A DNA stretch of 40,500 bases, taken from the NCBI GenBank assembly GCA_031285775.1, contig JAITVN010000054.1, positions 1 through 40,500 of the forward strand. The letters are read 5' to 3'. How positions within the stretch are numbered: the first letter of the stretch is position 1; each line of letters opens with the position of its first letter. The notes beneath the pieces were generated by a model. It had not been told where the DNA came from. It saw only the letters and a list, made by a program, of their open reading frames with translations, and did no database searches. This DNA comes from Streptococcaceae bacterium. GTDB lineage: Bacteria > Bacillota > Bacilli > Lactobacillales > Streptococcaceae. Below are positions 7,277 through 34,492 of the stretch, in pieces. A program made the position numbers and the translations under genes.

Positions 7277-7972
7277 ATGTTAGAAAAACTCAAAGAAGAA
7301 GTTTGGAGACAAAACTTGGAACTGCCCAAGCATGGCTTGGTCAAATTCACTTGGGGAAATGTTTCAGCAATGGATCGTGAATCAGGTTATTTTGTCATTA
7401 AACCGAGCGGTGTCAGCTATGAAAAATTAAAAGCTTCTGACATGGTAGTGGTTGATCTTGACAATCATGTCATTGAGGGCGATTTAAACCCTTCATCAGA
7501 TACCCCGACTCATGCTGTGCTTTACAAAAAATACCCCGAGCTTGGCGGGATTGTTCATACACACTCGACTTGGGCGACTGCTTGGGCGGAATCAGGTGTT
7601 GATGTCATGCCGATGGGAACGACGCATGCGGACACATTTTATGGGCCTGTGCCTTGCACACGCTACCTGACACAAGAAGAAATTAACGCAGGCTACGAGC
7701 ATGAAACTGGGAACATCATCATTGAAACCTTTATGGAACGCGAGATCGGTATTTTAGACATCCCTGCTATTTTACTCCATGGCCATGGGCCATTTACCTG
7801 GGGAAAAGATGCCGAGACCGCAGTATACAATGCTGTGGTTCTAGAAGAAGTCTGCAAAATGAACCTGCTGGCGCGTCAAATCAACAGTTACGCCACAGAA
7901 CTTCCGCAGCGTGTGCTGGATAAGCACTACCAGCGCAAACACGGGAAAGATGCCTATTATGGTCAAAAATAA
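7277..7972 (+). CDS. araD: L-ribulose-5-phosphate 4-epimerase
   Basis: AraD converts L-ribulose 5-phosphate to D-xylulose 5-phosphate, feeding the phosphoketolase or pentose phosphate route. The 231-residue protein is a class II aldolase-fold enzyme of the usual length. The zinc ligands are visible in IVHTHSTW (His94, His96) and LLHGHGPFTW (His170), with acid residue Asp119 in THADTFYGPVPC. Numbers are one below E. coli AraD. Start ATG 7277 is 2 nt after araB, and its Shine-Dalgarno AAGGA lies within the araB end. The TAA stop (7970-7972) is also the first three bases of an intergenic repeat, which separates araD from araA by 274 nt. Confidence 0.96.
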   Translation: MLEKLKEEVWRQNLELPKHGLVKFTWGNVSAMDRESGYFVIKPSGVSYEKLKASDMVVVDLDNHVIEGDLNPSSDTPTHAVLYKKYPELGGIVHTHSTWATAWAESGVDVMPMGTTHADTFYGPVPCTRYLTQEEINAGYEHETGNIIIETFMEREIGILDIPAILLHGHGPFTWGKDAETAVYNAVVLEEVCKMNLLARQINSYATELPQRVLDKHYQRKHGKDAYYGQK

Positions 7973-8147
7973 GATGTGAAGCAGGCTCGTTTTGAAGCGT
8001 AGAAAATTAGAAATTTGTGGCTCTGACCGTAGGTCAGGTTCACAAATTGTCTATTTTCCCCCCGCAAAAGAGGGGAAAGCGACCCGTAATCGGCTGAAGC
8101 CGAAACGGTCTGCTTACTAGCTTCAAGCCTGCTGAACTCAGTTGAAA
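7970..8147 (+). repeat. Intergenic hairpin repeat, full copy (araD-araA)
   Basis: The element begins TAAGATGTGAAG on the araD stop codon and ends GAACTCAGTTGAAA. Its arms pair: GCAGGCTCG (7981-7989) with CAAGCCTGC (8124-8132), GAAGC with GCTTC, AATTTGTG with CACAAATT (8041-8048), and a tip hairpin TGACC/GGTCA. An extra GC-rich module (8058-8120) with its own stems is inserted on the 3' side; 50 nt of it (8079-8128) are identical to 14224-14273. As the other ara genes are close together, this is probably transcribed within the ara mRNA. Confidence 0.85.
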
Positions 8148-12682: not shown

Positions 12683-13878
12683 TGGAAAAGAAAGAAAGTA
12701 AAGGGGGGCTGCTTGCGTCATTTGCCTCAAATGCACGCCAATACGGCATTGTTGGTGCCTTGATCGTCATCATCATTGTCTTTCAAATCTTGACTGGCGG
12801 ACTTTTACTCCAGCCGAACACCGTTGTCCAGCTGATTCAGCAGAACGCCTATGTCATCATCCTGGCAGTCGGCATGGTCATGGTTATCATTGCCACACAC
12901 ATTGATTTGTCAGTCGGCTCGCTGGTTGGTTTTATCGGCGGCTGTGTGGCTCTGCTCATGCAGGACATGCATTTGAACTGGTTCTTGGCAATTCTGGTTG
13001 GTCTATTGATCGGTGTGGCCGTTGGTATTTGGCAAGGCTTCTGGGTGGCCTTTGTCGGCATCCCTGGCTTTATTACAACTTTGGCCGGTATGCTGGTCTT
13101 CCGCGGACTTGCGACAACGATGATTAATGCGTCAATTCCTGTTAACAACTCATCGTTCAATGCCATTGCGGCAAATTATCTGCCCAATATTCTCGGCTTC
13201 TGGGGACCTTTTGACGGCTTGACAATTGTGGTCGGCCTGCTTATCATTGCAGCTTTTGTCTGGTCGACACTCAACAACCGCAAGAAAGCAGATAAAATCG
13301 GGCTTGAAGTAGAACCGCTGTCAACGTCATATGCCAAAATTGGAATCGCTGCGCTTGTGATACTCTTCCTGACCTACGAATTTGCCTCATCAGGCAATGC
13401 GACACAGGGCGGAATTCCGATCATGCTTGTCATTGTTGGTGTTCTGGTTCTAATTTACAACTTTATCCTGACGCGAACAGTATTTGGACGTCACGTCTAT
13501 GCTGTCGGCGGTAATCGTCGCGCAGCAATGCTTTCAGGTATCAACACAAAACGCGTCGACTTTGCTCTATTTGTCCACATGGGAATACTGTCAGCCATTG
13601 CAGCCATTGCGATGCTGTCGCGACTAAGTTCAGCTTCAGCGTCAACCGGAACATCATTTGAAATGGATGCCATTGCCTCCTGTTTCGTAGGCGGAACTGC
13701 CGTAACAGGTGGTATAGGTACAGTTCCAGGCGTTGTCATTGGTGCCGCAGTAATCGGTGTGATCAACCAAGGCCTATCAATCATGGGCGTCGATTCAGCA
13801 TTGATTCAGACAATAAAAGGCCTCGTTCTACTTTTGGCCGTAGCAATCGACATCTACTCAAAACGCCGTAAACATTAA
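12682..13878 (+). CDS. Sugar ABC importer permease (GguB/MmsB-like)
   Basis: This 398-residue protein is the membrane channel of the importer. It has about ten hydrophobic segments and the CUT2 permease features GMVMVIIATHIDLSVGSLVGF near the N-terminus and CFVGGTAVTGGIGTVPGVVIGA near the C-terminus. It starts one base inside the ATPase stop. With the ChvE-like lipoprotein and two-domain ATPase it makes a complete multiple-monosaccharide importer; the operon context points to L-arabinose. The stop codon TAA (13876-13878) coincides with the first bases of the first of three tandem repeats. Confidence 0.92.
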   Translation: MEKKESKGGLLASFASNARQYGIVGALIVIIIVFQILTGGLLLQPNTVVQLIQQNAYVIILAVGMVMVIIATHIDLSVGSLVGFIGGCVALLMQDMHLNWFLAILVGLLIGVAVGIWQGFWVAFVGIPGFITTLAGMLVFRGLATTMINASIPVNNSSFNAIAANYLPNILGFWGPFDGLTIVVGLLIIAAFVWSTLNNRKKADKIGLEVEPLSTSYAKIGIAALVILFLTYEFASSGNATQGGIPIMLVIVGVLVLIYNFILTRTVFGRHVYAVGGNRRAAMLSGINTKRVDFALFVHMGILSAIAAIAMLSRLSSASASTGTSFEMDAIASCFVGGTAVTGGIGTVPGVVIGAAVIGVINQGLSIMGVDSALIQTIKGLVLLLAVAIDIYSKRRKH

Positions 13879-13994
13879 GATGTGAGGCAGGCTTGTTTTG
13901 AAGCGTAGAGATTTAGGGACTTGTGGTTCTGCCGTATGGCAGGTTCACAAGTCATCTAATCTCCTAGCTTCAAGCCTGCCGAACTCAGTTAGAA
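13876..13994 (+). repeat. Intergenic hairpin repeat, tandem copy 1
   Basis: Starts TAAGATGTGAGG on the permease stop and ends GAACTCAGTTAGAA. This is the best-paired copy: GGCAGGCTTG (13887-13896) with CAAGCCTGCC (13971-13980), GAAGC with GCTTC, GAGATTTAG with CTAATCTC, GACTTGTG with CACAAGTC, and a tip hairpin GCC-gtat-GGC. The fold is about 95 nt of near-continuous stem. Confidence 0.9.
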
Positions 13995-14115
13995 TAAGAT
14001 GTGAGGCAGGCTCGTTTTGAAGCGTAGAGATTTAGGAAAACTGGAGGAAAAGCTTTAGCTTTTTCGGAAGTTTTATCTAATCTCATAGCTTCAGGCGCCC
14101 CGAACTCAGTTAGAA
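13995..14115 (+). repeat. Intergenic hairpin repeat, tandem copy 2
   Basis: Begins TAAGATGTGAGGCAGGCTCG and ends CCGAACTCAGTTAGAA. The left arm is of the GGCAGGC type, but the right arm reads CAGGCGCCCC, so the outer arms no longer match well. The tip differs from copy 1 and carries an AAAAGCTTTAGCTTTT-like hairpin. It looks like a chimera of two arm types. Confidence 0.85.
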
Positions 14116-14285
14116 TAAGATGTGAGGTGCGCCCGTTTTGAAGCGTAGAGATTCAGGGAGCTTGTGCTTTTGCCTTTAGGCAGGTTCACAAGTCATTTAA
14201 TCTTTCCCCCCAGAGGAGGGGAAGCGACCCGTAATCGGCTGAAGCCGAAACGGTCTGCTTACTAGCTTCAAGCGCCCCGAACATA
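14116..14285 (+). repeat. Intergenic hairpin repeat, tandem copy 3 with extra module
   Basis: Begins TAAGATGTGAGGTGCGCCCG and ends CCCCGAACATAACT. It carries the same additional GC-rich module as the araD-araA copy; bases 14224-14273 are identical to 8079-8128. Together, copies 1-3 fill the 444-nt gap between the permease and the next gene; no promoter is evident there. Confidence 0.85.
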
Positions 14286-14322: not shown

Positions 14323-14595
14323 ATGAATAAAGAGTTAAACACAACACAAAAATCACGTTTGTACGGATTGACAGCTATTGTCTGTGCGATTTGGCTCGGT
14401 CAGTCGCTGTTTAAAGCGAATCATGAGGACCAGCTGTTTTCAGTCTATAACGTCATCTTTTACATCTGTCTCCTATTAGTGATCGCATATACCGCTTTTT
14501 CCGCCTATCAAATGTGGAAGCAAGCGAAGTCAGAAGCTACAGAGTCCACACAGGACAATCCGTCTAATATCCCCAATGATTCCACCAAAGGCTAG
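14323..14595 (+). CDS. Small two-segment membrane protein of unknown function
   Basis: A 90-residue protein with two hydrophobic segments (about residues 12-29, ending near IWLGQSLF, and 42-62, VYNVIFYICLLLVIAYTAFSAY) and a hydrophilic, Ser/Asn/Thr-rich tail. I do not recognise the family. ATG 14323 follows GAAAGG with about 8 nt spacing; an upstream in-frame GTG at 14296 lacks a ribosome site. It is the last gene before the terminator closing the arabinose locus. The link to sugar uptake is positional only, and weak because three repeats intervene. Confidence 0.7.
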   Translation: MNKELNTTQKSRLYGLTAIVCAIWLGQSLFKANHEDQLFSVYNVIFYICLLLVIAYTAFSAYQMWKQAKSEATESTQDNPSNIPNDSTKG

Positions 14596-14646
14596 CAAAT
14601 GCCTACCAGAATCCGCTTCAATGAAAAAATGCCTCCTAATTTTAAA

Positions 14647-14680
14647 AAAAGCTTATGAATGATTAAATTCATGAGCTTTT
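14647..14680. terminator. Bidirectional terminator closing the arabinose locus
   Basis: AAAAGCTTATGAAT (14647-14660) pairs with ATTCATGAGCTTTT (14667-14680) with one G-U pair. A-rich and T-rich flanks serve both the ara side and the convergent Nudix gene. Confidence 0.85.
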
Positions 14681-14705
14681 AGTCGTTCTCAATAAAAAAT
14701 TAGTC

Positions 14706-15152
14706 TTAAAACGCGTTGTGAAATTTCTCAAGTCCCCATTTATGGCTGCCGCGCTTAAGCTTTTCCATCGCCTCTTCATAATCAAACCAGTAAATTTGAT
14801 TAAAATCCTCCAGCGGGGTTTTATCAAATACAACAGTGGCCAGACTGTAGATAAAAGCAGGGTTATAGTAATGCTGGTCACGGTGTGAACTATAAAAATA
14901 CTCATCAGCCTGTCCAAGAAAATCCCCGATCTCGCAAGTCGCCCCGATTTCTTCGAGGAGTTCGCGTTTCAGCGCCTGTTCATGATTTTCACCCGCTTCA
15001 ATCTCGCCGCCAGGCAGAAAAAAGCCCTTATTCGGCGCTTGAATCAAGCAGAACTGCTGATTTTTTTCGACAATTGCGTAAACACCCAAGCGGACTTTAT
15101 AATCCGCATCGTTCGATTTTTCCCCGAAAGTAGGAATTTTTTCGCTATTCAT
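14706..15152 (-). CDS. Nudix hydrolase
   Basis: A 148-residue single-domain Nudix protein that hydrolyses nucleoside-diphosphate-linked substrates; the exact substrate cannot be read. The Nudix box is complete: GGEIEAGENHEQALKRELLE followed by EIG fits GX5EX7REUXEEXGU. The end (FNQIYWFDYEEAMEKLKRGSHKWGLEKF) resembles MutT-like Nudix proteins of streptococci. ATG 15152 has no Shine-Dalgarno; instead an extended -10 box TGT-TAAAAT ends 7 nt upstream, so the mRNA is probably leaderless. It is divergent from mreC and convergent with the arabinose locus. Confidence 0.9.
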   Translation of the reverse strand: MNSEKIPTFGEKSNDADYKVRLGVYAIVEKNQQFCLIQAPNKGFFLPGGEIEAGENHEQALKRELLEEIGATCEIGDFLGQADEYFYSSHRDQHYYNPAFIYSLATVVFDKTPLEDFNQIYWFDYEEAMEKLKRGSHKWGLEKFHNAF

Positions 15153-15159
15153 TATTTAT

Positions 15160-15192
15160 ATTTTAACAAATTATCTGGAGAAATGTTAAAAT
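15160..15192. promoter_or_regulatory. Mirror-symmetric divergent promoter (Nudix / mreC)
   Basis: A 9-bp perfect inverted repeat ATTTTAACA (15160-15168) and TGTTAAAAT (15184-15192) flanks 15 bp. Read rightward it gives -35 TTAACA, 18-bp spacer, -10 TAAAAT with TG extension; read leftward it gives the same. Each -10 overlaps the other -35. Both start codons lie exactly 7 nt beyond their -10 boxes, so the two start sites compete and both mRNAs should be leaderless. Confidence 0.8.
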
Positions 15193-15199
15193 AAATAAG

Positions 15200-16033
15200 A
15201 TGAAAAAGTTTAATTTCAGTAAAGTGATCGTAATCGGTCTGCTCATTGTAATTGCCAGCATGACGGCCATCACCATAACGGCCAGATCTTACAGCAGTGA
15301 AAAGGAACCAAACGCATTTATCAAAGTAATCAACGACGGCACAGGAACGGCCGATGGCCTTTTATCAATGCCTGGAAATTTTATCAAATCGAGAGTCAAT
15401 GACTTTCGCAACGCACTGAATGCATTTTCGCAAAATCAGAATTTGAAAAAAAAGCTTTCGAATTCCTTTGTGGACAAGCAAAAACTTGCTGCGCTTGAAA
15501 ATGAAAACAAGCAATTGCGGGACGCTCTTCAGCTGCAGGAATCCTTAGCCAGTTACAAACTCATCAATGCTTTGGTCATCAATCGGGCGCCATCCAGCTG
15601 GAATGACATGATCATCATTAACAAAGGCAGCAGCTCCGGACTGGTAAAAGACACCTTGGTGATGTCGAACGGCGGCATTATTGGAATTGTCAGTCAGGTC
15701 AATATTTCCACCAGCAAAGTAAAGCTGCTGAGTAACTCAGACAATTTATTAAGCAAAATCCCTATCAAAATCGGGGACAATGCAGGCTTCCTAATGGATT
15801 TTGACAAAAAGTCAAACAGCTTTGTCATCTCCAATATGGGGAGCTTGACAGACATTTCTAAAGGTAATGACGTTGTCACTTCAGGATTAGATGGTGTGTT
15901 TCCTAGCGATCTGATGCTGGGGAAAGTTGACAAAGTCGAGACAGCCAGCTCAACATATGATGCCAAGATTTATGTAAAACCGACATCTGATTTTTATAAT
16001 TTAGAAATTGTTTCCGTTGTTAGCAGACAGTAA
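15200..16033 (+). CDS. mreC: Cell-shape protein MreC
   Basis: MreC is a bitopic membrane scaffold of the peripheral peptidoglycan synthesis machinery. The 277-residue protein has one N-terminal transmembrane helix (about residues 9-28), a coiled coil (about 68-115, DKQKLAALENENKQLRDALQLQ) and the double beta-barrel C-terminal domain, with ALVINRAPSSWNDMIIINKGSSSGL and MSNGGIIGIVSQV motifs. Length is normal for the family. ATG 15200 is preceded by an extended -10 only 7 nt away and no close Shine-Dalgarno (a GGAG lies 19 nt upstream), so it is probably leaderless. It is followed 54 nt later by mreD. No mreB is seen, as is usual in cocci. Confidence 0.94.
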   Translation: MKKFNFSKVIVIGLLIVIASMTAITITARSYSSEKEPNAFIKVINDGTGTADGLLSMPGNFIKSRVNDFRNALNAFSQNQNLKKKLSNSFVDKQKLAALENENKQLRDALQLQESLASYKLINALVINRAPSSWNDMIIINKGSSSGLVKDTLVMSNGGIIGIVSQVNISTSKVKLLSNSDNLLSKIPIKIGDNAGFLMDFDKKSNSFVISNMGSLTDISKGNDVVTSGLDGVFPSDLMLGKVDKVETASSTYDAKIYVKPTSDFYNLEIVSVVSRQ

Positions 16034-16087
16034 ATCTTTCCTGTTACTCGGAGCTGACGCTACATCAAAAAAGATCAAGGGGAATTT

Positions 16088-16645
16088 ATGAGCCACTGGG
16101 CTTTCCAATTTTTCAGTCCAATCATTCTGTTTTTTCTGATATTGGTTGACAGCCATTTCAGTATTTTTTTGACTGGCATATTTTCTGCTGCGATCATTCC
16201 CGTCTCGCACCTTTTTCTGATTTTCCTGATGTACACTACTTTAAAACATCATCTAACCTATCTGATCATCATGAGCGTGCTTTTGGGTATCATCTATGAC
16301 AGTTATTTTTTGGGCGTCATTGGTATTGCAGCTGCCATTTTCCCTCTGATCAGTCTTTTTCTTTACGAAATTCGCGACACTGTCTTTCAAAATCGATGGA
16401 CACGTATCTTTGCGACAGTCATTATCGTCTTTACTTTCGAGATCTTCAGTTACGGGATTGAATTTGCTTTCGGTTTGACGTCGCTCGCCCCGCTGACATT
16501 TATCAGTAAAGAATTAGCTGCGTCACTTGTCCTGAATATTATCTTGGCAACCGCATTACAATGGCCGCTGGAAGCATTGTACCAAGTTGAAAAAGCTGAA
16601 AATGTCAGGAAATTTAAAAAAGACAAAAATGAAATATTCCCGTAA
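16088..16645 (+). CDS. mreD: Rod-shape protein MreD
   Basis: A 185-residue polytopic membrane protein with about five or six hydrophobic segments, the size and pattern of MreD (for example FFSPIILFFLILVDSHFSIFLT, GIIYDSYFLGVIGIAAAIFP). MreD partners MreC in guiding peripheral wall synthesis. ATG 16088 follows AGGGGAATTT. It sits directly downstream of mreC with no terminator between, so the two form an operon, and the pcsB-like gene follows after its own -10 box. Charged tail KFKKDKNEIF is cytoplasmic. Confidence 0.9.
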   Translation: MSHWAFQFFSPIILFFLILVDSHFSIFLTGIFSAAIIPVSHLFLIFLMYTTLKHHLTYLIIMSVLLGIIYDSYFLGVIGIAAAIFPLISLFLYEIRDTVFQNRWTRIFATVIIVFTFEIFSYGIEFAFGLTSLAPLTFISKELAASLVLNIILATALQWPLEALYQVEKAENVRKFKKDKNEIFP

Positions 16646-16674: not shown

Positions 16675-16722
16675 TACAGAAGTTATTCTTATGTCGATTA
16701 TTTTGGGAGGAAAAACGAACCA

Positions 16723-17874
16723 ATGTCAATTAAGAAAAAAGCGCTTGCTGGTTTGCTCTTATCAACTGTTACCCTGTCAACACTGGCACCGATCACGCCT
16801 TTGACGCACACAAAGATTGCCTATGCCAACACAACTGACGACCAAATCGCCGCTGCCGAAGCGACCATCGCAAATGCGCAAGCAAGCTCAGCCGAGACTC
16901 AGGCTGCTTTAAATACGCTTCAGGCCTCAGTGGACGCCGCCAATGAAAAAGTAAATCAGCTTCTGGCTGAAAGTACAGCAACATCGGCACAAATCAAAGA
17001 GCTTAAAGTCACGATTGAACAACGAAGCGAGACGCTGAAAACACAAGCGCGTAATGCACAGACCAGCGGTAGTGTGACAAATTACATCAACACCATCATA
17101 AATTCCAAGTCATTAACCGATGTCGTTCAGAGAATTTCTGCCATGACACAAATGGTTCGAGCCAGCAATAACATGCTTAAACAGCAGAAAAAAGATCAAG
17201 CTGCGCTGCAGGAAAAACTCGCTCAAAACACAAAAGCTTATGGCGAGGCGAAGGAACTGCAAGATCAGCTGGAAATCCAGAAGCATGACCTAGAAGCAGC
17301 AAAGATAGCCTATAGTGCAACCATCGCTTCCACCCAGGAGGAGAAGGACCAGCTTCTGGCCAAAAAGGCTGAAGAAATTGCAAAAGCCGAAGCAGCCGCT
17401 GCCGCTCAGGCAGCTGCAGAAAAAGCAGCTGCAGAAGCCGCGGCGGCACGTGCGGCACAACAGCAGCAAAGTGCAAGTACAACTACTTCAAATAGCACAG
17501 CAAGTAATTCAACAAGTGATAGTAGCAGTAGCGTATATCACTCAATAATACCTGTTTCATACAGCAGTAATAATCCATTTCCAGCAGGCCAATGTACCTG
17601 GGGAGTATATGAAATTCTTAATGGAAACATGCCTATCTTTCAAGGAAATGCTGGGGACTGGGCAGTTAATGCGAATTCCTCAACTCCTGTTGCAGGGGCA
17701 ATAATGGTCTTCTCGCCAGCAGCAGCAGGAAATGAGTGGGGTCACGTAGCAGTTGTTGACAGTGTGAACCCCGATGGAACTGTGAATATCAGAGAGTCAA
17801 ATTACAATGAACAGAAATACATAACCTCTCGATCAAATGTGTCGACTGCAGGCTGTTTATTTATTATTCTTTGA
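16723..17874 (+). CDS. Secreted PcsB/Usp45-like CHAP-domain peptidoglycan hydrolase (paralogue 1)
   Basis: The 383-residue protein has a signal peptide (about residues 1-35, cleaved after AYAN-like residues), a long coiled coil (about 38-245) with a hydrophobic helix NSKSLTDVVQRISAMTQMVR typical of PcsB/Usp45, an Ala/Gln and Ser-rich linker, and a C-terminal CHAP amidase/endopeptidase domain. The CHAP catalytic Cys is in GQCTWGVYE and the His in WGHVAVVD. PcsB proteins split peptidoglycan at division, activated by FtsEX. Start ATG 16723 has GGGAGG upstream; the frame extends 20 codons further 5' without a ribosome site. Its place after mreCD matches usp45 in Lactococcus, and a close paralogue follows at 18976. 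Confidence 0.93.
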   Translation: MSIKKKALAGLLLSTVTLSTLAPITPLTHTKIAYANTTDDQIAAAEATIANAQASSAETQAALNTLQASVDAANEKVNQLLAESTATSAQIKELKVTIEQRSETLKTQARNAQTSGSVTNYINTIINSKSLTDVVQRISAMTQMVRASNNMLKQQKKDQAALQEKLAQNTKAYGEAKELQDQLEIQKHDLEAAKIAYSATIASTQEEKDQLLAKKAEEIAKAEAAAAAQAAAEKAAAEAAAARAAQQQQSASTTTSNSTASNSTSDSSSSVYHSIIPVSYSSNNPFPAGQCTWGVYEILNGNMPIFQGNAGDWAVNANSSTPVAGAIMVFSPAAAGNEWGHVAVVDSVNPDGTVNIRESNYNEQKYITSRSNVSTAGCLFIIL

Positions 17875-23205: not shown

Positions 23206-23310
23206 CAAAACTGAGTTCGGCGCGCCTAGAGCTAGCAAGCAGACTCTTATCGTTTCTATGATTGGAGGTTGCAATTTATTCACTTCAAGCCTGGCGCACC
23301 TCATATCTTA
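23206..23310 (-). repeat. Intergenic repeat, reverse-oriented copy (secA-aroF gap)
   Basis: On the minus strand it begins TAAGATATGAGGTGCGCCAGG (at 23310) and ends GGCGCGCCGAACTCAGTTTTG. Internally GTCTGCTTGCTAGCTC (minus strand) recalls the GTCTGCTTACTAGCTT of the extra module in the copies at 7970 and 14116. It ends 16 nt before the next start codon, so in this orientation it sits in a 5' leader, unlike the copies placed after stop codons. Confidence 0.75.
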
Positions 23311-23326
23311 ATACAAAGGACAACAA

Positions 23327-24352
23327 ATGACATTTAAAAAGTTGAGCCAAAAGATAAACGTTGATGAGCTCAAACAGGGTAGCGTTCTAAACTTCGAGCA
23401 AATCACCCGTAAAATTGAGCGCGAAAAAGAATTATACAATATCATAGCTGGTCGTGATGATCGCCTGCTGCTTGTGATTGGCCCATGCTCAAGCGATCGA
23501 GAAGAACCCGTACTTGAATATGCGCAACGTCTTGCAGAACTTCAAGAAGAAGTTAAGGACAAGATTTTCATGGTGATGCGTGTTTATACTGCAAAACCGC
23601 GAACCAATGGCGATGGATACAAAGGACTTATTCACCAGCCCAATCTAAATGAAAGTCAGGATCTTATCAATGGCCTACATGCAGTGCGGGAGCTCCATTA
23701 CAAGGTTATAACGGAAACAGGGCTCATCACAGCTGACGAAATGCTCTATGTCGAGAATTTGAATTTGGTGGAAGATCTTGTCAGCTATCATTCAGTCGGC
23801 GCTAGATCAGTCGAAGATCAGGCGCACCGTTTTGTCGCCAGCGGGATTGATGCGGCTGTAGGAATGAAAAATCCGACCTCTGGAAATCTCAACGTCATGT
23901 TTAACGCGATTCACGCGGCGCAGAAGCCTCAAACATTCCTTTTTGACCACGAAGAAGTAGAAACAAGCGGTAATCCGCTGGCACATGCCATTTTGCGCGG
24001 CAGTATGGATGAAAACGGGAAAAATCATCCCAACTTTTTTACAGATAATTTGCTGGATACAATTGAAAGTTATGAAAAGCTGGAACTAAAAAATCCCTTT
24101 ATCCTGATAGATACAAATCATGACAACTCCGGTAAAAAATACTTGGAGCAAATTCGAATTGTGCGGCAGACACTGCTCAACCGAAGCTGGAATGAGAAAA
24201 TTCGGAAATACGTGCGCGGCTTTATGATTGAGTCTTATCTTGAAGACGGACGCCAAGATGAGCCGCTGGTATTTGGGAAATCAATCACAGATCCTTGTCT
24301 TGGTTGGGAGAAAACAGTGCGCTTGGTCCACAAAATTGCCGAAACGATTTGA
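23327..24352 (+). CDS. 3-deoxy-7-phosphoheptulonate (DAHP) synthase, class I
   Basis: It condenses phosphoenolpyruvate and erythrose 4-phosphate, the first step of the shikimate pathway. The 341-residue protein belongs to the AroFGH (E. coli-type) class: LLLVIGPCSS (about residues 48-57), MRVYTAKPRTNGDGYKGL (PEP/E4P site), GARSVEDQAHR, GMKNPTSGN and ILIDTNHDNSGK (metal ligands) are all seen. ATG 23327 follows AAAGGA. Which aromatic amino acid inhibits it cannot be told from sequence, so no AroF/G/H letter is given. It stands alone between a repeat and a tandem-repeat array. No terminator hairpin is evident after it; the T-rich array begins 43 nt after the stop. Confidence 0.95.
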   Translation: MTFKKLSQKINVDELKQGSVLNFEQITRKIEREKELYNIIAGRDDRLLLVIGPCSSDREEPVLEYAQRLAELQEEVKDKIFMVMRVYTAKPRTNGDGYKGLIHQPNLNESQDLINGLHAVRELHYKVITETGLITADEMLYVENLNLVEDLVSYHSVGARSVEDQAHRFVASGIDAAVGMKNPTSGNLNVMFNAIHAAQKPQTFLFDHEEVETSGNPLAHAILRGSMDENGKNHPNFFTDNLLDTIESYEKLELKNPFILIDTNHDNSGKKYLEQIRIVRQTLLNRSWNEKIRKYVRGFMIESYLEDGRQDEPLVFGKSITDPCLGWEKTVRLVHKIAETI

Positions 24353-24395
24353 AGCAGTGGACGCGCTTAAAAAAAGTATTGAAAACATGACAGGG

Positions 24396-24512
24396 TTTTT
24401 GAATTATTGATTTTAGTCTTTTTGAATTATTGATTCTAGTCTTTTTGAATTATTGATTCTAGTCTTCTTTTTGAATTATTGATTCTATCTTTTTGAATTA
24501 TTGATTCTAGTC
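24396..24512. repeat. Array of five 23-bp direct repeats upstream of rpmB
   Basis: The unit TTTTTGAATTATTGATTCTAGTC occurs five times: 24396-24418 (one T for C), 24419-24441, 24442-24464, 24468-24489 (one base short, after a TTC insert) and 24490-24512. Units are contiguous without spacers and each holds the partial dyad GAAT-N5-ATTC. The array ends 1 nt before the -35 box of the rpmB promoter, so it is placed like an activator or UP-element array, although a simple slippage tract is possible. Confidence 0.9.
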
Positions 24513-24513
24513 T

Positions 24514-24542
24514 TTGACAAAGTCTGTTTATTTTGATAAACT
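24514..24542 (+). promoter_or_regulatory. rpmB promoter
   Basis: Consensus TTGACA (24514-24519), a 17-bp spacer and TAAACT (24537-24542). The leader is about 65 nt and contains TGGCC...GGCCA-type complementarity (24559 region), then AAGGAA before ATG 24616. Confidence 0.75.
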
Positions 24543-24615
24543 ATTAATGCGCTGTTTTGGCCAGCAAGCGTGCAGGCCATTTAACAGGAAAATCTGAGGG
24601 AAGGAAATTTTAAAA

Positions 24616-24810
24616 ATGTCAAAAGTATGTTATTTTACAGGTCGAAAGACGGTCTCAGGCAATAATCGATCACACGCAATGAACCAGACAAAGCGTCAAG
24701 TTAAGCCGAATCTTCAAAAGATTAAGATTGTTGAAGACGGAAAGATTAAGACAGTTTGGGCTTCAGCAAAGGCGCTTAAAAAGTTGCCTGCTGGCGTTAC
24801 TCGCGCGTAA
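24616..24810 (+). CDS. rpmB: 50S ribosomal protein L28
   Basis: A 64-residue basic protein matching bL28 over its full length: [20 protein letters not shown] at the N-terminus and [18 protein letters not shown] at the end. It binds 23S rRNA in the large subunit. ATG 24616 follows AGGGAAGGAAA. It is divided from the following asp23-fakA pair by repeats and a terminator, though the order rpmB then asp23-fakA is common in Firmicutes. Directly upstream lie its promoter and the 23-bp repeat array. Confidence 0.97.
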
Positions 24811-24837: not shown

Positions 24838-24975
24838 TAAGATTGAAATCAAGCCCCTAAAGGGGATGAGCGTTCTCTAAAACAGAGTCAGCTTGGGAAT
24901 ATTGGCATCTGCCACCAGACAGTTCCAAAATTCAGCCGATTTCAAAGCTTCAGGCTTGTTGCACTCGATTAATCA
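24838..24975 (+). repeat. Degenerate copy of the intergenic repeat after rpmB
   Basis: It begins TAAGATTGAAATCAAGCCCC and ends AGCTTCAGGCTTGTTGCACTCGATTAAT, which parallel the two ends of the family (TAAGATGTGAGGCAGGC... and AGCTTCAAGCCTGCCGAACTC...). CAAGCC at the left pairs with GGCTTG at the right, and CCCCT-aa-AGGGG makes a small hairpin. The middle is unlike the other copies. Of the 561-nt gap between rpmB and the next gene, this fills the first quarter. Confidence 0.55.
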
Positions 24976-33336: not shown

Positions 33337-34449
33337 ATGAAAATAGGAATCGATAAAATCAATTTTTACGTGCCCCAACGCTACATAGACATGACAGATT
33401 TAGCTGAGGCGCGTGGTGTTGACCCTGCAAAATTCCACATTGGGCTCGGACAGGATCAGATGGCAGTGACGACCGCCAATGAAGACATCATCACGTTGGG
33501 CGCTAACGCAGCGTCTGAAATCCTGACCGCTGAAGATCGCGCAGCTATAGATTTAGTCATTGTCGGCACCGAGTCAAGTGTCGATGAATCCAAGGCCTCG
33601 GCAGTTATCCTGCACAACCTGCTGGGTATTCAGCCTTTTGCGCGTGCTTACGAGATCAAGGAAGCCTGCTACAGCGGAACTGCAGCTCTAATGATGGCCA
33701 AGCAGCACGTTGAGGCACATCCTGAGCAGAAAGCGCTCGTCATTGCGGCAGATATTGCCCGCTATGGGCTGAACTCCAGCGGTGAGCCTACTCAAGGTGC
33801 GGGTGCTGTTGCCATGCTGGTATCTGTAAATCCAAGCATTTTAGCTTTGGAGGACGACTCCGTGGCGCTGAGCCAAGACATTTATGATTTCTGGCGGCCG
33901 ACTGGTGAGGCATTTCCGAGAGTGGAGGGCAAGCTCTCCAATGAGACCTACATTGACAGCTTCTCACAAGTCTGGGACGAGTATAAAGTTCGGACTGGTC
34001 TTGATTTCAGCGATTTTGCCGCTCTGGCCTTCCACACACCTTACACAAAGATGGGCAAAAAGGCACTGCAGCCGCAGACAGACGATGCGCATCTTTTTGC
34101 CGAGTTTGAAAATGCGATTGCCTACAATCGCCGCGTGGGGAACCTATACACAGGTTCGCTATATTTGAGCCTCATCTCCCTGCTGGAAAACTCAACGGAT
34201 CTGAAAGAAGGTCAGCGCATCGGACTCTTCAGCTACGGCTCAGGTGCCGTGGCAGAATTCTTCAGCGCGAAACTCGTTGACGGCTTCGAGCAGCATCTCA
34301 GGACTGAGGAACATCGCAAACTGCTGGATTCACGCCAGAAACTGACGATTGCTGAGTACGAGCAAGTTTTTACCTCAAAAGAAATCTTGCCGAGCGATGA
34401 AAAATTCAGCCTAAGTGAAATATCCGGCGGCGTCCGCTATTATAATTAA
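33337..34449 (+). CDS. mvaS: Hydroxymethylglutaryl-CoA synthase
   Basis: It condenses acetyl-CoA with acetoacetyl-CoA to HMG-CoA in the mevalonate route to isoprenoids, used by Gram-positive cocci. The 370-residue protein starts MKIGIDKINFYVPQRYIDM. The catalytic Cys111 is in KEACYSGTAALMMAK, with the His in AFHTPYTKMGKKAL and the GTESSVDESKA loop. ATG 33337 is set by homology; the open frame runs 26 codons further upstream across both promoters and has no ribosome site. The HMG-CoA reductase gene mvaA, often adjacent, is absent here. The TAA stop (34447-34449) is also the first three bases of a short repeat copy. Confidence 0.95.
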   Translation: MKIGIDKINFYVPQRYIDMTDLAEARGVDPAKFHIGLGQDQMAVTTANEDIITLGANAASEILTAEDRAAIDLVIVGTESSVDESKASAVILHNLLGIQPFARAYEIKEACYSGTAALMMAKQHVEAHPEQKALVIAADIARYGLNSSGEPTQGAGAVAMLVSVNPSILALEDDSVALSQDIYDFWRPTGEAFPRVEGKLSNETYIDSFSQVWDEYKVRTGLDFSDFAALAFHTPYTKMGKKALQPQTDDAHLFAEFENAIAYNRRVGNLYTGSLYLSLISLLENSTDLKEGQRIGLFSYGSGAVAEFFSAKLVDGFEQHLRTEEHRKLLDSRQKLTIAEYEQVFTSKEILPSDEKFSLSEISGGVRYYN

Positions 34450-34490
34450 GATGTGAAGCGCGCCCGCAAAGAGGCGCCGAACTCTGTTTA
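34447..34490 (+). repeat. Minimal intergenic repeat on the mvaS stop codon
   Basis: TAAGATGTGAAGCGCGCCCG (from the stop codon) is joined by a 5-6 nt loop region to GGCGCCGAACTCTGTTTAGA. GCGCC pairs with GGCGC. It is the shortest hairpin-retaining form of the family and lies between convergent mvaS and rlmA, where it may act as a terminator-like structure. Confidence 0.8.
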
Positions 34491-34492
34491 GA

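Follow-up and report, generated by a model that had tools for sequence, protein, structure and literature searches.

The locus considered here raises the question of whether a row of short tandem repeats beside the promoter of a ribosomal protein gene is a control site or a stretch of DNA that was duplicated in place. Five near-identical 23-bp units with the consensus TTTTTGAATTATTGATTCTAGTC occupy positions 24396–24512 of the window, i.e., of the whole stretch of 40,500 nucleotides that was analysed, and adjoin the predicted promoter of rpmB. The features of the locus are as follows, with "dyad" referring to the motif GAAT-N5-ATTC.

23327–24352, + strand: 3-deoxy-7-phosphoheptulonate synthase of the aroF type, the upstream gene; its stop lies 43 bp before the array
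24396–24418, + strand: repeat unit 1, TTTTTGAATTATTGATTTTAGTC, with one C-to-T change; ATTT breaks the dyad
24419–24441, + strand: repeat unit 2, consensus
24442–24464, + strand: repeat unit 3, consensus
24465–24467, + strand: extra TTC at the junction of units 3 and 4
24468–24489, + strand: repeat unit 4, with only 22 bp as one G is missing
24490–24512, + strand: repeat unit 5, consensus; judging from the predicted promoter, it would occupy the UP-element position at about −38 to −60
24514–24542, + strand: predicted rpmB core promoter (consensus scan; same layout in four congeners)
24616–24810, + strand: rpmB, 50S ribosomal protein L28 (NCBIfam TIGR00009, 71.8 bits, cut-off 48.3)

TRF recovered the array with a period of 23, 5.1 copies, 91% matches, 7% indels and a score of 199, and five matches were observed against 0.06 expected from dinucleotide shuffles. 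Five near-perfect 23-bp repeats ending 1 nt short of a consensus TTGACA, as described in the first-pass annotation, were thereby confirmed. The array proper has a total length of 117 bp and stops at 24512, from where a single T (24513) leads into TTGACA; the end originally assigned to it, 24542, includes the core promoter. The period of 23 is not a multiple of three, and it holds as the TRF period but not as a constant distance, the unit-to-unit spacing being 23, 23, 26 and 22 bp. The A+T content of the array is 79% versus 62% in the remaining aroF–rpmB intergenic region.

The identification of the downstream gene as rpmB was borne out by the match to TIGR00009 well above the cut-off. According to the consensus scan, the predicted promoter consists of TTGACA at 24514–24519, a 17-bp spacer and the −10 element TAAACT at 24537–24542. 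An additional, weaker promoter-like site was seen at 24379, against an expectation of 1.1 sites from shuffles, and the consensus scan gave no terminator after aroF. Neither an Rfam family at gathering score nor a tRNA was found in the window, and over the intergenic region no RNA structure exceeded that of shuffles (z −0.25). The genus is represented in the collection by four other genomes (G001 to G004), and a promoter-like TTGACA with a 17-bp spacer precedes rpmB in all four. The rpmB leader (24543–24615) varies among the congeners, with a GCGCTGT/GCGTTGT stretch 3' of the −10 element being kept in the genome under study (G000), G001 and G003.

As one possible function, a multi-site operator had been proposed. 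To act in this way, a dimeric regulator would bind the dyad of each unit and control rpmB. The multiplicity of sites would suit such a regulator, and the dyad, which had been ascribed to the units in general, is intact in four of the five (24424, 24447, 24473 and 24495), with ATTT in unit 1 as the exception. However, dyads with arms of at least 4 bp and a loop of 0–8 occur in 33% of random 23-mers from the window and in 30% of shuffled units, and in all four congeners the 150 bp preceding the rpmB promoter lack the exact dyad. GAAT-N5-ATTC is also present at three other places in the window. As a conserved operator, the dyad was rejected for being common by chance and missing at the rpmB promoters of the congeners. 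The spacing of the units, which is irregular and leaves them out of helical phase, and the lack of a second genomic copy beyond chance (see below) argue against an operator as well, and we regard it as highly unlikely.

The companion proposal, a protein sitting on one face of the DNA due to a period of about two helical turns, did not hold up. At 10.5 bp per turn, 23 bp correspond to 2.19 turns, and with the varying spacing the units come to lie at phases of 0, 69, 137, 309 and 343 degrees. The phase coherence of 0.46 (0.19 to 0.51 over 10.0 to 11.0 bp per turn) is near the random mean of 0.40, with a 95% point of 0.76, and helical phasing of the units was rejected.

If the array acted as a promoter-proximal rheostat or UP array, its A/T-rich units would contact the α C-terminal domains of RNA polymerase, and the gain or loss of units would tune rpmB. 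The placement of the proximal unit in the UP position, one base from TTGACA, is in line with this, as is the A+T content of 79% in the 24 bases at that position; the two syntenic congeners, G001 and G003, are also A/T-rich there (71% each). The consensus of UP elements is reportedly NNAAAWWTWTTTTNNNAAANNN at about −59 to −38, which is said to go back to Estrem et al. 1998. The proximal unit scored 7 of the 14 fixed positions, which equals the median of random sequences with the same A+T content (mean 6.7, 95th percentile 10), and the equivalent place has only 62% A+T in G002 and 42% in G004. Values range from 42 to 79% within the genus, where A/T richness is no constant property of the rpmB promoter. 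In addition, units beyond about −60 are usually too distant for direct α contacts. Of the A/T-rich UP array envisaged in the first-pass annotation, the high A+T content against the −35 box stands and allows a modest effect; as an explanation of the whole array, we consider promoter-proximal tuning rather unlikely.

In the form of a copy-number rheostat, strains would gain or lose 23-bp units and thereby tune the supply of L28 and ribosome assembly without a regulator. A repeat tract directly against the core promoter is what such a device calls for, and here 1 nt lies between the array and TTGACA; this position of the array, exactly against the −35 box, could be more than coincidence. We nevertheless judge copy-number tuning of L28 to be quite improbable.

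The genome under study is a draft of 2,255,563 bases in 119 contigs (89.77% complete), and the 18-base core of the unit had nine matches in it with up to three mismatches, namely the five units and four matches with three mismatches each. The reversed-pattern control yielded two. The unit is a single-locus sequence, and the search for it elsewhere in the genome, a check that had been proposed with the first description of the array, returned no recurrence beyond chance.

Within a set of 58 genomes including the one under study, the array was present in this genome alone; it was not found in the four congeners, with one genome per species, and G022 had one match with three mismatches. The search of the family comprised 107 genomes including the same one, 106 of them with an rpmB match, i.e., 105 relatives. 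For 69 of these 105, regions of 230 to 600 bases upstream of rpmB, some of them shortened by contig ends, were examined, and no comparable array was found in any of the 69. With a TRF score of at least 40, the 69 regions gave three two-copy rows of 12, 12 and 21 bp, where shuffles give 1.5 per 69. Upstream of rpmB in G005, a genome of another genus, one of these two 12-bp repeats, imperfect and with two copies (locus L038), ends 3 nt before TTGCAA, which may be the −35 element of rpmB there. We take this repeat as a low-score match in A/T-rich DNA; a parallel to the array is conceivable.

A mobile origin of the unit was considered and rejected, with no exact 18-mer in viral contigs and only short, weak matches of the region 24330–24640 to plasmids (two records) and phages (two records). 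In the collection of genome contigs, the exact 18-mer occurred in seven stretches from unrelated organisms, one match each, which by our own estimate is about chance level for 257 billion bases. Among the papers listed on promoter repeats with UP elements, on VNTR in Lactococcus, on tandem repeats and on rpmB promoters, none was found to report the array.

To look for other arrays, 20 stretches totalling 275,760 bases were scanned along with the 40,500 bases of the window, together about 14% of the genome, at a TRF score of at least 50. No further array of at least three copies with a period of 20–24 was found in this part; among repeats with two copies, it contained one of 21 bp and four of 25–27 bp. 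This result bears on the possibility that the array belongs to the intergenic tandem repeats of constant period and variable sequence known from Bacillus (20–21 or 52 nt), for which a nucleoid or RNA role would be assumed. The array resembles them in being intergenic and non-coding, in having a period near two helical turns and in not being shared with relatives, and repeats of 20–21 nt are reported from further groups of bacteria as well (PMC8161180). With a period of 23 instead of 20–21, and as the sole array of this kind in the fraction scanned, the array has only a very slight chance of belonging to that class.

Repeats otherwise seen in the scan included some of 17 to 27 bp in two copies, one of 15 bp in 3.7 copies, a pentanucleotide tract and elements of about 120 bp. 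The pentanucleotide tract (CTGCT × 14.6, 100% matches by TRF) is located at 16692–16764 of locus L076 (G000, contig C76), about 250 bp upstream of a 930-aa minus-strand open reading frame, which matched the type IIG restriction-methyltransferase model PDLC03598 over nearly its full length with 983.9 bits. It is possible that this tract is phase-variable. By eye, the sequence between tract and reading frame resembles the element of about 119 bp described below. At locus L075 (G000, contig C72), a long complex of 9- to 336-bp repeats extends over 14524–16378 and, from its periods and sequence, probably codes for a collagen-like surface protein.

The element of about 119 bp is a dispersed repeat, of which the window contains two full tandem copies at 13877–14114 and a third, weak one at 14117–14201 (+ strand). 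Weaker matches in the window lie at 7971–8146 (+), 23206–23309 (−) and 34448–34491 (+). Just downstream of rpmB, an unfiltered search of 201 bases gave a weak match of 10.7 bits at 24860–24973, which is absent from the whole-window search and is possibly a decayed copy. The element folds as one long hairpin, often in tandem, with compensatory changes between copies. Fourteen copies were aligned, two of them from the window and the others from 12 loci out of 55 matches; 24 of the 38 pairs in this alignment had a change on both sides, and 93.6% of the cells were paired, compared to 83.1% in shuffles of the 3' letters. With the partners slid by −3, −2, −1, +1, +2 and +3, pairing was 36.6, 44.4, 52.5, 49.4, 39.4 and 28.8%, respectively, a comparison that favours the structure over its slid versions since it was derived from the same sequences. 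Cells changed on both sides numbered 63 versus 18.6 in shuffles, a count reached in 0 of 500 shuffles, which is not a probability because the copies are related.

No Rfam match at gathering score was obtained for the element in the window or at eight loci. The model built for it had at least 62 matches in the genome under study and, at E ≤ 0.001, was found in 25 of the 58 genomes of the order, this one included, with the E-values being rough and the search confined to the order. These genomes comprised three of the four congeners, with no match in G001, and also members of other families of the order, with tandem copies in some; two distant loci that were read consist of tandem hairpin units of about 120 bp. 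With plain blastn, the four congeners gave no match. Small repeats have been described as a class in Enterococcus faecalis, and the element may be a known intergenic repeat that the literature searches made here missed.

For the origin of the array, the congeners provide the closest comparison. The gene order, comprising the tail of a gene which we take to be SecA, aroF, rpmB and a gene presumed to be Asp23-like, is common to the genome under study, G001 and G003; the Asp23-like gene matched only AmaP, below the cut-off. In G002 and G004, rpmB has other upstream neighbours, so that aroF is shared at this place by G001 and G003 alone. The aroF–rpmB intergenic region is 263 bp long here, 143 bp in G001 and 127 bp in G003. 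Of the 120-bp excess over G001, 94 bp are explained by four extra units plus TTC, and most of the remainder falls between the stop of aroF and the array. A unit-like stretch is located 1 nt from TTGACA in G001, where 15 of the 24 bases abutting TTGACA are identical to the window (anchored shuffle P 0.0026). When the unit was placed freely in the G001 intergenic region, the best spot was the anchored one, but with P 0.15, and the intergenic region of G003 had no significant match to the unit (P 0.82). Because of these two values, a single ancestral segment, which would later have been multiplied into the array, is put forward here as a suggestion from the aligned sequences.

An assembly artefact, i.e., units added or lost by the assembler, could be suspected for a draft genome of this fragmentation and completeness. 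Given that the array comprises just 117 bp, that distinct variants anchor some of the units and that the flanking gene order agrees with two congeners, this has a very small probability.

Considering these results, the array is likely a lineage-restricted minisatellite that arose against the −35 box through duplication in tandem and has little or a modest effect on rpmB. It is composed of adjacent near-identical copies of at least 10 bp at one locus, as a minisatellite is. A slippage tract was among the readings in the first-pass annotation, and it is the part of them that fits best, because the array is confined to its own genome among those sampled. The survey of relatives likewise makes a neutral or weak-effect reading likelier. 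Mechanistically, tandem copies would have been made of a 23-bp segment directly upstream of the rpmB −35 box, through slippage during replication or through unequal recombination. The duplication would be recent, and the copies appear to have begun diverging by one substitution, one 1-nt deletion and one 3-nt insertion. With its core promoter intact, rpmB would be transcribed as in related species, with the unit next to the −35 box perhaps offering RNA polymerase some A/T-rich upstream contact and the four distal units most likely doing little. We infer that the effect of the array on rpmB is near-neutral or small. Overall, a local duplication of DNA seems a better description of the array than a control site, which makes it a fairly ordinary finding. 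A neutral array may be of use for strain typing in this species and little more; one whose copy number tunes rpmB would mean that a core ribosomal gene has the kind of promoter-proximal repeat rheostat reported from Helicobacter pylori, for instance at the adhesin gene sabA.

Among known systems, the most fitting place for the array is with minisatellites beside promoters, a kind already known. The array has in common with UP elements that A/T-rich DNA immediately precedes the −35 box, whereas its consensus score is no better than that of random A/T-rich DNA. With the 20–21 nt repeats of Bacillus it shares the form of a short, non-coding, species-specific tandem array (PMC8161180). Unlike these, it has a period of 23 and an irregular spacing, and it is the single such array in the sampled 14% or so of the genome, while species rich in the Bacillus class have several families of the same period per genome (PMC8161180). 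At sabA of H. pylori, promoter output depends on the length of a T-tract, through which the alignment of the promoter with UP-like elements is shifted, and T- or A-tracts adjacent to −35 elements are treated in the same study (PMC4081817). Both cases have a repeat tract near a core promoter, where a change in length could alter upstream contacts. They differ in that mononucleotide tracts at an adhesin gene, with length variation and a promoter effect, are reported there (PMC4081817), whereas the present case concerns rpmB and a 23-bp minisatellite known from its sequence. By analogy, the sabA T-tract may be taken as the nearest functional model for the array, and the 20–21 nt tandem repeats of Bacillus, as characterised in PMC8161180, as its nearest descriptive class.
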